Assembly: GCA_947631645.1 (NCBI GenBank)
Contig: CANRMD010000001.1
Span: forward strand, 1 to 64,000
Source of the DNA: Candidatus Gastranaerophilales bacterium
GTDB taxonomy: Bacteria > Cyanobacteriota > Vampirovibrionia > Gastranaerophilales > Gastranaerophilaceae
DNA: 64,000 nt
Reading direction: 5' to 3'
The notes beneath the pieces were generated by a model that was not told where the DNA came from, did not search any database, and worked only from the letters and a program-made list of their open reading frames with translations. The translations under genes were made by a program, and so were the position numbers. Positions within the stretch are counted from its first letter, which is position 1; every line of letters begins with the position of its first letter. This document shows positions 14,989 to 30,317 of the stretch, in pieces.

Positions 14989-16080
14989 ATGAATAATACG
15001 CTTTTAAAACCACAGCAAATAACGTTTGATATTACTGACAGATGTCAAATGCAGTGTGTTACTTGTGCAAAGTGGAGCACAGTTCCGTCTGATGTAATAA
15101 ATAAAGAACTGACAACTGAAGAATGGAAAAAGGTTCTTTCTGATTTAAGAAATTGGCTCGGCGAGGGCTTTTGGTTCTGCTTTTCGGGTGGTGAACCCTT
15201 TTTAAGACAAGATATTTTTGAACTTGCTGATTATGCACATTCTCTCGGCATTAAAGTTGCATCTATGACTAACGGTTTTAGTATTCAGCATTTATACGAA
15301 AAAATTGTTGATTCGCCTATTGAATCATTAAATTTCTCATTAAATGCAATAAATAATCCTTTAATACATGATGAGTCAAGAGGACGAAACGGTTCTTATG
15401 AAAAGATTATTGACGCAATAAATGAAATAAAAAGTCTAAAAGATGAAAAAAAATCTTCAATCGGGCTTAATATAGCAACAATTATGTTACCTGAGAACTT
15501 AGAAGAAATTATACCGCTTGTTGAATTTGTAACTTTGAATAAGTTAAACGGAATAATGTTTCAGCTTCTTGATGACAAAGAATCTTTTCAGGCATATTGC
15601 GTAAGGTCAAGTTCAAAAACCTCAAAATATGTTATGCCAAAAGAACTGCGTATTAAGTATAAAAATATGTCAAAACGTGCAATTGAAATTATAGACAAAT
15701 TAATTGAAATGAAACAAGCGGGACATTCAATATATAATTCATACGAGCAGTTAAATGCAATGAAAGTATTCTTCAATAATCCTGATGATATTTTGCGGGA
15801 TATTAAATGTGATGTGGGCTCTACTAATTTTGCCATAGACCCGTATGGTGATGTCAGACTTTGCTTTAATATGGATCCTGTTGGCAATATTAAATCGGAA
15901 TTACCTGAAATGATTTGGGAAAATGCACAGTCGCAAAACTGCCGTTTGCTGACAAAATCTTGCAAAATGTATTGCAGAATGCTTAATTGTAACTTTAAAC
16001 AGAATTTTACCAATTTCAATAAAAGTTTTCTTGAAAAATGTTTTAATAAAGCGGTTAAAATATTGTCAGGCAGGCATTAA
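14989..16080 (+). CDS. Radical SAM protein with SPASM-like C terminus
   Basis: This is a 363-residue radical SAM enzyme. The 4Fe-4S/SAM motif CxxxCxxC is C19, C23 and C26 (DRCQMQCVTC), followed by the FSGGEPFLR segment that binds SAM. A later Cys-rich region (IKCDVGSTNFAIDPYGDVRLC, then CKMYCRMLNC in the last 40 residues) resembles a SPASM/Twitch auxiliary cluster, as in peptide- or cofactor-modifying members. The substrate is unknown; no precursor peptide is adjacent. Its stop codon overlaps the ATG of the next gene by one base, so the two are translationally coupled. Confidence 0.85.
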   Translation: MNNTLLKPQQITFDITDRCQMQCVTCAKWSTVPSDVINKELTTEEWKKVLSDLRNWLGEGFWFCFSGGEPFLRQDIFELADYAHSLGIKVASMTNGFSIQHLYEKIVDSPIESLNFSLNAINNPLIHDESRGRNGSYEKIIDAINEIKSLKDEKKSSIGLNIATIMLPENLEEIIPLVEFVTLNKLNGIMFQLLDDKESFQAYCVRSSSKTSKYVMPKELRIKYKNMSKRAIEIIDKLIEMKQAGHSIYNSYEQLNAMKVFFNNPDDILRDIKCDVGSTNFAIDPYGDVRLCFNMDPVGNIKSELPEMIWENAQSQNCRLLTKSCKMYCRMLNCNFKQNFTNFNKSFLEKCFNKAVKILSGRH

Positions 16081-26436: not shown

Positions 26437-29004
26437 ATGGTAAATAGTGTATTCTCTGATTTTTCTGTGCAACCATACACCGGTAGTTCTGTTAAGGTTG
26501 TAAAAGATGAACAGAAAAATGAAGATATTAAAAAAGTTACTTCTCCTGAGCTTACTAAAAAAGAGAAAATAATTAATACCGCAAAAAAAATTGCCCCTGT
26601 AGTAATTCCATTAGCTGCAATTCCGTTGACAGCATTAATTACATATAAATTATCATCAAAGAATATCAAGTATTTAAATAATAAAATTGAAACTTTATCA
26701 TTGCAAGTAGAAAGAGCCGGCAAAAATGCTGAAAAAATTTCAAAAGCACTGGAAGAAACAGGTAAAAGTGTTGCAACCCAAACAGAAAAAGTTGCGAAAT
26801 TAGATAATAAAGTTGCAAAGATTGTTGCAATGCTTGCAGGCGGGGTTGGAACATATCAATTTGGAAAAAATGCGGGTAGAAGTGAAGATGAAAAATCTAT
26901 TTATTATAAAAATATTATAAATGACAGTAATTTGCCTTATGATCCGCTTACTCCTCCAGTATTAAAAACTGATGAGTACAGTATTATTTCAAAAGATTTT
27001 CCCTTTAAAGATTTATCTGATAAAGTTACTCCAAAGACGGAGGATAATTATATTAATAATCTGATTAATCAACTAAACAAATTTGGAGAAATAAATATTC
27101 CTTTATCAACTCAGAAACATAGTGATGAAGAATTTAAAAAAGCTTCAATAGACAATATTAATTCATCTGACCTTAATTTAGGACAATTTATTCCAATAGG
27201 AATGAGCGTTAAATACGGAAAACGTACAAATTGGAGTAATGAAAAAATATCAAGAGATATACTGCAAAATTTTTATGATGCAAATAATCATACTTTGGAC
27301 GGAGTAGGTTTCAGTATTATTAGGGATGGTGAAAAATACAGAGTCAAGATTACAGGTAGTGCATTATTTGACTGTAAAGAGTTATTAGAACTTGGATCAG
27401 GTAATAAATCAGAAGAAAGTCCATATAATGCCGGCGGTTTCGGAGAAGGGTCAAGGCTTGTTGTTGCAAGTTTACTGGGACAAGATAAGGTTGAAAATAT
27501 AAAATTCAGTAGTGCAGACTGGAAATTAACATTTAATCAAAAAGACGGCTCAATAAGGAGAATGTTGGAAAAAACGTCTGAATGTATTGATGGTAATTAT
27601 ATTGAATTTGAAACAAATGACAGAAAATTTACGGAATCACTTATAAAATCATTAAATTATTTTAACAGTTCAAACAATGGGGATTATCAAAATCTTAATT
27701 ATGACAGCAAAGACTTTGGTTTTAAAATATTATACCCCAGACAGTCCGGCAATTTATATATGACACAAAGATTTGAGTATGGTGCTGACAACAAATGGGA
27801 TAACGGACTTGAAGGGTTAACTTTAATATTTAAAAGAAAACCTGATGCACAAAAATTTTATGATTTAACTAAAAAAGATTTTTCTAAAGGACGTGACAGA
27901 ATTTATTATACAGGTGATGATATCTTTGATTTAACAAGATATTTTGCTAAAGATATGTCTGATAGCGATTTGATTGATGCTATTTTATTGACAAAAGATT
28001 TTTGGACCTCATCACGAAATGATAATAAAAGGGCAATAGATTATTTTATAAATGGTCTATGTAAAGAGGCAAACGCCAGAAGAATTGGTATAAATTTTGA
28101 AAATGAAAAATATTGTATAACCGATTGTTTTTCTAATAATGCAATAATTGATTATGTAAAAAATATGGGCTATAAAGTGATTTCATCAGGCTTGTCATTA
28201 AATATGGTTGGAATGCCAACAGTAAGTGAAATAAAAGATAAATCATCCGCACATAAGCCATTAAAACCGACAGATGTTGAAATTAAAAAAATTAAATTAC
28301 TTGATGAGGCGGCAAGGGTTATTCAAGAATCTATCAAAGAGGCGTACACAAATAAGTCATTGTCTTTATATACAGAATTAAAGGATAAGTATACTGACGG
28401 TAATTTGCTTGTAGATGATTACACAACAAGAATGAGAATAGCAGGATATATTATTAAACATGACACAAATTCAGAGTTTGTAAAAAAATACGGCAGTAAA
28501 ATAATTGATGATCCTCAACAATTTACAAAAGATTTATTTGAATATCTTGATAATATTATTTGGGATAATGATAAAAAATTACTTTTTGGTAAAATCATAA
28601 AAGAAATGCTGCCTGAAGAAAGTGAAGAAAGGAAAGAATTAAAATCAGATCTTGATATTTTGGGCTTAATATTAGATGCAGATATAAATATGCCACGATA
28701 TATATTTGATAGCAACTCTGAAATAAGTACAAATACTCTTGGAGAGGCAATAATCGATACTTCAAATTTTGGCAGAAAGTATATGGGTCATTGGATAGAC
28801 AGAACCTATTTAAATAAAGGTGATTTTTATGACCTATTAGCAACGTGGTTGCATGAAATGTCACATAAAACAGGCGGTGATGGCAGTTCGACATTTACTT
28901 ATGCTTTAACTGATTTAATACAGGCCTTAATAAAAGCCGGTGTAAAGTGTGATTCAATGCAAAAAGATTTAAGTGTAATAGAAAAATTGTTTAATACATT
29001 ATAA
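26437..29004 (+). CDS. Membrane-anchored GHKL-like ATPase/HExxH protein
   Basis: An 855-residue protein of unknown function. The N terminus (1-42) is polar and starts MVNSVFSDF. A hydrophobic segment (about 52-70, APVVIPLAAIPLTALITYK), a coiled coil and a second short hydrophobic segment (about 125-140) form a module shared with the glycogen synthase at 55472-58135. Residues 273-283 (RDILQNFYDAN) look like a GHKL N-box, and G333-GFGEGSR like the G2 box of Hsp90/MutL-type ATPases; a classical DxGxG box is not obvious. Near the C terminus, H806-EMSH fits an HExxH zinc-peptidase motif. Ribosome binding site AAAGGAG. The ATPase-plus-protease reading is inference from motifs. Confidence 0.65.
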   Translation: MVNSVFSDFSVQPYTGSSVKVVKDEQKNEDIKKVTSPELTKKEKIINTAKKIAPVVIPLAAIPLTALITYKLSSKNIKYLNNKIETLSLQVERAGKNAEKISKALEETGKSVATQTEKVAKLDNKVAKIVAMLAGGVGTYQFGKNAGRSEDEKSIYYKNIINDSNLPYDPLTPPVLKTDEYSIISKDFPFKDLSDKVTPKTEDNYINNLINQLNKFGEINIPLSTQKHSDEEFKKASIDNINSSDLNLGQFIPIGMSVKYGKRTNWSNEKISRDILQNFYDANNHTLDGVGFSIIRDGEKYRVKITGSALFDCKELLELGSGNKSEESPYNAGGFGEGSRLVVASLLGQDKVENIKFSSADWKLTFNQKDGSIRRMLEKTSECIDGNYIEFETNDRKFTESLIKSLNYFNSSNNGDYQNLNYDSKDFGFKILYPRQSGNLYMTQRFEYGADNKWDNGLEGLTLIFKRKPDAQKFYDLTKKDFSKGRDRIYYTGDDIFDLTRYFAKDMSDSDLIDAILLTKDFWTSSRNDNKRAIDYFINGLCKEANARRIGINFENEKYCITDCFSNNAIIDYVKNMGYKVISSGLSLNMVGMPTVSEIKDKSSAHKPLKPTDVEIKKIKLLDEAARVIQESIKEAYTNKSLSLYTELKDKYTDGNLLVDDYTTRMRIAGYIIKHDTNSEFVKKYGSKIIDDPQQFTKDLFEYLDNIIWDNDKKLLFGKIIKEMLPEESEERKELKSDLDILGLILDADINMPRYIFDSNSEISTNTLGEAIIDTSNFGRKYMGHWIDRTYLNKGDFYDLLATWLHEMSHKTGGDGSSTFTYALTDLIQALIKAGVKCDSMQKDLSVIEKLFNTL

Positions 29005-29057: not shown

Positions 29058-29133
29058 GGGCGGTTGGCGCAGTTGGTAGCGTATCACATTGACATTGTGG
29101 TGGTCGCTGGTTCGAGTCCAGTACCGCCCACCA
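29058..29133 (+). tRNA. tRNA-Val(GAC), CCA encoded
   Basis: The full cloverleaf can be drawn. The acceptor stem is GGGCGGT (29058-29064) with ACCGCCC (29123-29129), and the D arm is GCGC/GCGT. The anticodon stem TCACA/TGTGG closes the loop TTGACAT, which gives anticodon GAC (29091-29093). The T arm is GCTGG TTCGAGT CCAGT. The 3' CCA is encoded at 29131-29133. The last 27 bases around the 3' end recur imperfectly 164 bases downstream. Confidence 0.97.
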
Positions 29134-29160
29134 TTTTCAAAAGATACATAATATGATTTT

Positions 29161-29208: not shown

Positions 29209-29287
29209 TGAGCAGAGGGCGGACGGTCAAGGCGATGAGCCTTGCCGGAAGACCCGTTTAATGCGAACAGGTCAAGACAGTCCGGTA
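29209..29287 (+). ncRNA. Candidate structured RNA/DNA element, copy B
   Basis: Second copy of the element at 1-85. The hairpin is CAAGGC (29228-29233), loop GATGA, GCCTTG (29239-29244). The next helix is CCGGA (29245-29249) with TCCGG (29281-29285), and it encloses CGTTTAATGCGAAC (29255-29268) and CAAGACA (29273-29279). An extra inner GACC/GGTC pair is possible. Compared with copy A, the stem bases change on both sides while the loop words stay, which is the mark of a conserved secondary structure. It lies between tRNA-Val and a terminator and may be cotranscribed with the tRNA. Confidence 0.55.
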
Positions 29288-29325
29288 CCACCCACCATTT
29301 TCACAAGAATATTTATTTTGCTTAT

Positions 29326-29356
29326 AAAAAAAAAGAGCTTTTGTGCTCTTTTTTTA
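29326..29356. terminator. Bidirectional intrinsic terminator
   Basis: Stem AAAAAAAAAGAGC / GCTCTTTTTTT with a loop of 6. It ends the tRNA-Val/element B unit on the plus strand and the SGNG-repeat peptide gene on the minus strand. Confidence 0.75.
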
Positions 29357-29539
29357 TAGATTTAATCCGTTTCCGCTTATTCCGTTTCCTGATAGTCCGT
29401 TCCCCGATAAACCGTTGCCGGACATAACCTCAACATCAAACATCATAAAAGGAAACAGATTGATATCTAAATCTTTTTCTTCGTCAATAATTTCTGAAAT
29501 ATTATTAAGAACAACTTTTTTTTCTTTTTCGAAACTCAT
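29354..29539 (-). CDS. Small protein with four C-terminal SGNG(L/I) repeats
   Basis: A 61-residue protein with a well-placed AAGGAG ribosome binding site and a terminator directly after the stop, both arguing that it is real. Residues 1-39 form an acidic leader-like region (EKEKKVVLNNISEIIDEEKD, then a hydrophobic LFPFMMFDV). Residues 40-59 are four perfect pentads SGNGL, SGNGL, SGNGI, SGNGL. The Ser codons are TCC, TCG, TCA and AGC, so the DNA has drifted while the peptide is kept, implying selection on the residues. It resembles a ribosomally made, modified peptide precursor, but no maturase is adjacent. A structural or adhesive peptide is the alternative. Confidence 0.7.
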   Translation of the reverse strand: MSFEKEKKVVLNNISEIIDEEKDLDINLFPFMMFDVEVMSGNGLSGNGLSGNGISGNGLNL

Positions 29540-29627
29540 ATAAAACTCCTTATATATAGTTACATATAATGAGTATCGACATTTATAAAAATAACTTTAG
29601 AAAAAAATGCTTAATGTTAAGTTTTAT

Positions 29628-30317
29628 TTATAAAGACTTAAGAATATTTTCAGCTGTAATAATATCTGCAGGGTATGTAATTTTAATGTTATTTTCTGAA
29701 CCGTTAATAACAAAAATATCAGCCAGATTATATTTTAAAATAAGAGAGCAATCATCAGTAGCTGAATTAAACCCATTTTCTAAAGCAAGATTATGAGCTT
29801 TTTTTATTAAATTGACTTTAAAACATTGAGGAGTCTGACATCTTCTTAAATATTTACGTTGAGGTACACTTTTAATAAGATTATCATCATTTATCTCTAT
29901 AATAGTATCAGTTGTTTCAACAGTTGTATTAACGGCAGAATATTTATCAAGAGCATTAACGCAATCAGAAATAATTTTGTTACTTACAAAAGGTCTTACT
30001 GCATCGTGAATAAGAACATTTGCATTTTCATTGTCAATCTTGTGAACCCCGATGTAAGAGCTTTCTTGACGGGTTTTTCCGCCTTTTATAATATTCGAAA
30101 CTTTTGTAAAAACATTTTTATCAACAATAGAAGTTGTTAAATCAATAAAATCAGGATTGGAAACAACAATAATTTCATCAATATCTTTGTGATTTTGAAA
30201 TGCCGAAACAGAGTATTCCAAAACAGTTTTTCCTAGGATTTTATAGAATTGTTTTGGAATATTTAGGCCCATACGAGAGCCCGTACCTGAAGCTAATATA
30301 AGTGCGATATTTTTCAT
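29628..30317 (-). CDS. ispD: 2-C-methyl-D-erythritol 4-phosphate cytidylyltransferase
   Basis: IspD makes CDP-ME in the MEP isoprenoid pathway. The 229-residue protein has the CTP-binding start LILASGTGSRMGLNIPKQF, HDAVRPFVS, a TTVETTDTI segment, VPQRKYLRRCQTPQCF and DDCSLI, all family signatures (Lys/Arg of the P-loop and the catalytic Arg and Lys regions are present). No Shine-Dalgarno is obvious. It lies downstream of ssrA on the same strand. Confidence 0.93.
   Translation of the reverse strand: MKNIALILASGTGSRMGLNIPKQFYKILGKTVLEYSVSAFQNHKDIDEIIVVSNPDFIDLTTSIVDKNVFTKVSNIIKGGKTRQESSYIGVHKIDNENANVLIHDAVRPFVSNKIISDCVNALDKYSAVNTTVETTDTIIEINDDNLIKSVPQRKYLRRCQTPQCFKVNLIKKAHNLALENGFNSATDDCSLILKYNLADIFVINGSENNIKITYPADIITAENILKSL

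Follow-up and report, generated by a model that had tools for sequence, protein, structure and literature searches.

A short SGNG-repeat gene of the Gastranaerophilales as a candidate precursor for cobalamin-type radical SAM enzymes

A 61-residue gene ending in four SGNG(L/I) pentads was analysed in a 64,000-nucleotide stretch of DNA from a Candidatus Gastranaerophilales bacterium (the window; its genome is referred to as G000). Gene content also points to a Gastranaerophilales-like, non-photosynthetic relative of cyanobacteria. The reading favoured here, at a probability of about 0.45, is that of a RiPP-like precursor, with a cobalamin-type radical SAM enzyme that would act in trans to modify its GNG units. 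Short GNG-repeat peptides recur in relatives, where they are linked by placement and co-occurrence to one radical SAM family; the probability is kept at this value chiefly because G000 has no enzyme of the clade that holds all peptide-linked enzymes (the core clade).

The repeat peptide gene

The gene is read on the minus strand, from an ATG at 29537-29539 to a TAA at 29354-29356 (61 codons), and its product is MSFEKEKKVVLNNISEIIDEEKDLDINLFPFMMFDVEVM-SGNGL-SGNGL-SGNGI-SGNGL-NL, the final 22 residues comprising four pentads, each with a perfect S-G-N-G, and a closing NL (Table 1). The original prediction, made from the letters of the window, had described a 61-residue gene ending in these pentads, with a good ribosome binding site, a terminator and an acidic leader, and all of these were recovered; 3' of the gene, a 14-bp inverted repeat and a T run make up the candidate terminator (fold −12.2 kcal/mol, z −3.85). 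This hairpin was not picked up by a simple terminator scan, probably owing to the way the stem continues into the T run, and the palindrome could act as a terminator for both strands. As in RiPP precursors, a leader-like part and a separate core are combined in a short gene, and by eye the residues just before the first GNG are like those of the relatives' peptides.

Table 1. Features of the repeat peptide gene and its surroundings in the window
Feature	Position	Strand	Basis
61-aa repeat peptide gene	29354..29539	-	ATG-to-TAA open frame; AAGGAG 6 nt upstream; syntenic 75-aa ortholog in G028
Acidic leader-like region, residues 1-39	29423..29539	-	10 D/E and 4 K/R
Putative core, residues 40-59, four SGNG(L/I) pentads	29363..29422	-	
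Ribosome binding site AAGGAG	29546..29551	-	Read from sequence
Hairpin and T run, likely terminator	29325..29358	-	Inverted repeat and fold
ispD	29628..30317	-	88 nt upstream of peptide gene, same strand; same neighbour in G028

Searches with the 61-aa peptide against Pfam (E up to 1), NCBIfam and PHROGs returned no match. An Rfam element was rejected as the identity of the gene, as was a phage origin of the peptide, the PHROGs search having given nothing; a scan of viral contigs produced just one 29-aa ORF.

Two further features of this part of the window were recorded. The 855-aa product of 26437-29004 (+) was not clearly matched by any family; close to its end there is a HEMSH motif of HExxH-like form. 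The 3' end of a tRNA-Val gene and its flank occur as a 30-nt direct repeat (90%) at 29115-29144 and 29279-29308, 164 bp apart; the arrangement resembles a duplicated attachment site on either side of the remnant of a small element.

The codons of the repeat were then compared. Serine is encoded differently in all four pentads (TCC, TCG, TCA and AGC), as the original prediction had pointed out, and the first Gly codons are GGC, GGG, GGA and GGA. Between units of one peptide, Gly third codon positions differed in 122 of 190 comparisons, showing that the units did not arise by recent DNA copying; third positions are near saturation while the peptide motif is retained. The six non-degenerate GNG sites were identical in every comparison, which is true by construction, the units having been picked by GNG. 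When the peptide's own residues were shuffled, three or more SGNG motifs were obtained in none of 200,000 trials. Against the ortholog in G028, the window gene gave NG86 values of dN 0.41 and dS 0.86 (dN/dS about 0.47). Together with the near-saturated third positions and homologues of two to eight units, this ratio supports the earlier proposal that the repeat is maintained as peptide, with selection acting at that level.

Homologues in the order

Homologues were sought by genome search, by pattern searches (98 relatives; 383 genomes of the order) and by reading enzyme neighbourhoods. In G000 itself, the genome search found a single copy of the gene. Short ORFs with two to eight (S/A/G/Q)GNG(I/L/F/M) units were found at different chromosomal sites in 14 other genomes of the same order, bringing the set to 15 genomes; a repeat number that varies among relatives, suggested beforehand as something to look for, was thereby found. 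The units are spaced by exactly five residues in 34 of 38 cases, GNG being preceded by S, A, G or Q in 47 of 53 and followed by I, L, F or M in 46 of 53, and the peptides of many relatives bear a conserved acidic tail.

A clear ortholog lies beside ispD in G028, as in the window; it encodes 75 aa with seven units (E 7e-11). Where the 3' flank of ispD could be read in other members of the genus, it contained no copy of the peptide gene, leaving G000 and G028 only. Elsewhere, peptide genes are found at a HydF-like GTPase locus (G002 and G003), downstream of chromate-transporter-like genes (four g55 genomes) and after the gene for a 671-aa EF-hand protein (G052). At the HydF-like locus of the window's genome, an 82-aa acidic peptide without GNG units is encoded (L073:4675-4923, +), where G003 and G002 have GNG peptides. 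The motifs on which homology between sites is based are short and simple, and the resemblance of the peptides may reflect either descent or convergence on the recognition motif of one enzyme.

How far the peptides extend beyond the order was judged solely from a sample of genomes taken from the order and the class. At the DNA level, the repeat has a 15-nt spacing (pattern GGNAAYGGNNTNNNNGGNAAYGGNNTNNNNGGNAAYGG); a scan of 84,980 species genomes used a 14-nt spacing rather than that of the repeat itself and gave 26 matches, with no in-frame GNG repeat. Class-level matches in G455 and G456 were rejected as homologues, being larger glycine-rich ORFs or DNA-level tandem repeats, and single matches of the type seen in G084, G206 and G232/G356 were set aside, with no GNG-repeat ORF at them. 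In the literature searched, neither an SGNG or GNG-repeat precursor nor radical SAM peptides of this lineage were described.

FPPQW radical SAM enzymes and their neighbours

In G013 and G067, 600-aa radical SAM proteins beginning with an (F/I)PPQW motif are encoded near the peptide, and peptide genes adjoin FPPQW genes in six relatives in all (G005, G009, G013, G021, G023 and G067); no FPPQW gene stands beside the window gene. The original prediction had raised a radical SAM link and a neighbouring modifying enzyme. The link holds in relatives, by placement and by co-occurrence, but with a cobalamin-type enzyme in place of the SPASM protein encoded at 14989, and the adjacency is seen in those six relatives and not in the window.

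Across 14 genomes, an FPPQW gene was located no more than 2 kb from 5 of the 14 strict-pattern peptides, against 0.12 expected in a genome-wide placement test (P 5e-8), and the remaining 9 of 14 are not beside the enzyme. Enzyme genes were counted at E 1e-60 in relatives and at E 1e-15 in g55 genomes. With phylogeny ignored, the core clade was present in 9 of 10 peptide genomes and 17 of 88 others (Fisher p 1.6e-5); with the same caveat, the figures were 7 of 8 and 13 of 33 within the genus (p 0.018), and 4 of 4 and 3 of 7 in g55 (p 0.11, weak alone). About 40 enzyme loci were fetched and read for neighbouring genes. An ORF-level test in the fetched loci was not significant (short GNG ORFs in 7 of 56 near the enzyme and 7 of 130 far from it, p 0.086), partly because G067 and G009 escaped the enzyme filter and the far set included loci that had been selected for their peptides; the genome-wide placement test was relied on in its place. 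The enzyme is frequently present without any GNG peptide, and other short GNG peptides, GNGNGNGNGNN and DANGNGKLDCNGNGRYD, occur in the same kind of neighbourhood (G061, G073).

TIGR03975, the model for RiPP maturation radical SAM C-methyltransferases (rSAM_ocin_1), was the best or near-best NCBIfam model for every FPPQW member tested (E 1e-34 to 1e-42), with scores of 117-147 bits against a curated cut-off of 281.85 bits; on these scores, the FPPQW enzymes are classed as relatives of TIGR03975 and not as members. Their cysteine motif is CX4CX2C, whereas the usual one is CX3CX2C. When two members were compared with Pfam, PF04055 exceeded its cut-off and PF02310 reached 26.1 bits (cut-off 32.1) in one and was absent from the other; a cobalamin-binding domain is accordingly predicted from the TIGR03975-type models and this single sub-threshold match. 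In the tree, all peptide-linked enzymes fall within one well-supported clade of 42 rows, the core clade.

Several other observations were made at FPPQW loci. Six FPPQW-like genes stand in tandem within 12 kb in G002 (C5:103982-115935), and the enzyme cassette of G013 adjoins genes read by eye as a B12 uptake operon (BtuF/BtuC/BtuB-like; L038:2127-6683). Genes with flagellar readings (FliP/FliQ, FliD, FlgF/FlgG, FliS) recur nearby in L074, L145, L172, L242, L245, L246 and L036, noted without statistics.

The constant neighbours of the enzyme are a partner of about 115-130 aa and a larger protein with an EF-hand-like D-x-[ND]-G-[ND]-G loop. This loop was found in 31 of 132 ORFs of at least 130 aa lying no more than 1.5 kb from the enzyme and in 1 of 284 elsewhere (Fisher p 6e-16, uncorrected for relatedness), and the EF-loop proteins are more consistently linked to the enzyme than the GNG peptides are. 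One subfamily, family A, shows almost no variation across GGEIKIADANGNG, a stretch that suits an EF-hand loop and has no more than weak Pfam matches. EF-loop proteins encoded beside the enzyme in L075, L036 and L169 also carry MCGMGMGMG, a second motif of repeat-like form. A wider role, in which the FPPQW enzymes, as a lineage-specific family, would recognise G-[ND]-G and modify both the multi-unit GNG peptides and the EF-hand-like loops of larger proteins, is considered unlikely.

Proposed modification, alternatives and known systems

Under the favoured reading, the acidic 39-residue leader and the multi-unit core, (SGNG L/I)x4, would together form a RiPP-like precursor. The leader, or the acidic tail in many relatives, would present the peptide to an FPPQW/TIGR03975-like cobalamin-type radical SAM enzyme, which would act on each G-N-G unit in turn. 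Since GNG is the invariant part, Asn or a neighbouring Gly is indicated as the site, and the chemistry would most likely be C-methylation at or beside Asn, by analogy with B12/radical SAM enzymes for which C-methylation of ribosomal peptides is described (ApyD in PMC11117315, the group in PMC11285071). What is inferred here comprises the substrate role of the peptide, the modified residue, the type of chemistry and what becomes of the product.

In G000, the enzyme would have to act in trans from another locus. Five FPPQW-like paralogs, on C9, C12, C36, C42 and C5, are encoded in this assembly, which is 94% complete, and all fall outside the core clade, making G000 the sole peptide genome in the co-occurrence table without a core-clade enzyme. 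The nearest paralog, on C9, stops 0.3 kb short of a contig end; in the tree it groups with a G023 enzyme next to which neither a peptide nor an EF-loop protein is encoded. The core enzyme may be missing from the draft, one of the five paralogs may serve, or the peptide may have lost its enzyme. Beside the window gene, no leader protease or exporter was identified.

The lack of a core-clade enzyme in G000 would also fit a peptide that is never modified. It would then be a small acidic protein with GNG repeats that themselves serve, for instance, as a flexible, metal-binding or partner-binding tail, with a function related to that of the EF-loop proteins of the same neighbourhoods. The G-[ND]-G element that the peptides have in common with the EF-hand-like loop of the enzyme-linked larger proteins (31 of 132 ORFs against 1 of 284) and the position of the G052 peptide after an EF-hand protein agree with this. 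The pentads, however, have no Asp residues of the kind that ligate calcium in EF-type loops, and the radical SAM linkage and co-occurrence would be left unexplained; this explanation is regarded as doubtful.

The greater constancy of the EF-loop protein as neighbour, the near-invariance of GGEIKIADANGNG in family A and the GNG element common to peptide and EF-loop protein would suit a different role, with the peptide as a partner or decoy whose GNG units bind the enzyme and regulate it or deliver it to its real substrate, the DANGNG EF-loop protein. Up to eight near-perfect units would suit a repeated core better than a regulator, and single-peptide loci lie far from EF-loop proteins in G002, G003 and G190, which makes this role rather improbable.

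A precursor modified by an unrelated enzyme, either the SPASM protein or another, draws on the same gap in G000, where no cognate enzyme is assigned, and on the presence of the SPASM gene (14989-16080; PF04055 and PF13186 matches) on the same contig. This gene belongs to a separate group 14 kb from the peptide gene, with unrelated genes between and no shared operon, in line with the original observation that the two are not adjacent. No GNG peptide lies beside it, and its best models, of heme d1/AhbD/PqqE type, scored well below their cut-offs. With nothing linking the SPASM protein to the peptide and relatives pointing to another enzyme family, it was dropped as a partner and is probably unrelated to the peptide, and modification by an unrelated enzyme is judged improbable. 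Finally, a spurious ORF or decaying gene, which the confinement of the ispD-linked copy to G000 and G028 within the genus might suggest, is hardly credible against the ribosome binding site, the hairpin, the ortholog dN/dS below 1 and the many independent homologues.

Several known systems resemble the proposed pairing of precursor and FPPQW enzyme. TIGR03975 systems have enzymes of the same superfamily and, as in several relatives here, a short repeat-core peptide beside the enzyme; they differ in that a GNG core is found here, often with an EF-loop protein and a helical-looking partner of about 115 aa in place of a known leader type. In the aminopyruvate-forming Apy cluster (ApyA/ApyD), ApyD C-methylates Tyr at C-beta, an unactivated carbon, in a RiPP (PMC11117315), and NF050148, a B12/radical SAM C-methyltransferase model, matches the FPPQW family below cut-off. 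ApyD, however, targets one Tyr and not a repeated GNG unit, and no MNIO, P450 or RRE protein was recognised beside GNG peptides. Proteusins such as polytheonamide have an Asn-rich periodic core, with B12/radical SAM methyltransferases in the pathway (PMC11285071), but Asn methylation in polytheonamide is N-methylation by PoyE, the period is six where it is five here, and the GNG peptide has no nitrile-hydratase-like leader. The five-residue period is also that of pentapeptide-repeat proteins (PF00805 type), an identity rejected on the absence of a Pfam match, the presence of only two to eight units and an invariant GNG that differs from A(D/N)LXX.

The product of the window gene is probably the starting material of a chemically modified peptide whose kind is without description in the databases and papers searched. 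If so, a new ribosomal modified-peptide group would be at hand, with an unusually regular, countable core of two to eight units and a link to radical SAM enzymes whose family is expanded in a lineage that is little studied and for the most part uncultured. Substrates of the FPPQW enzymes would become directly testable, and the shared GNG would predict EF-hand-like loops as a second substrate class; were the wider role also true, a new modified-peptide class and a new loop modification would be combined in one system.
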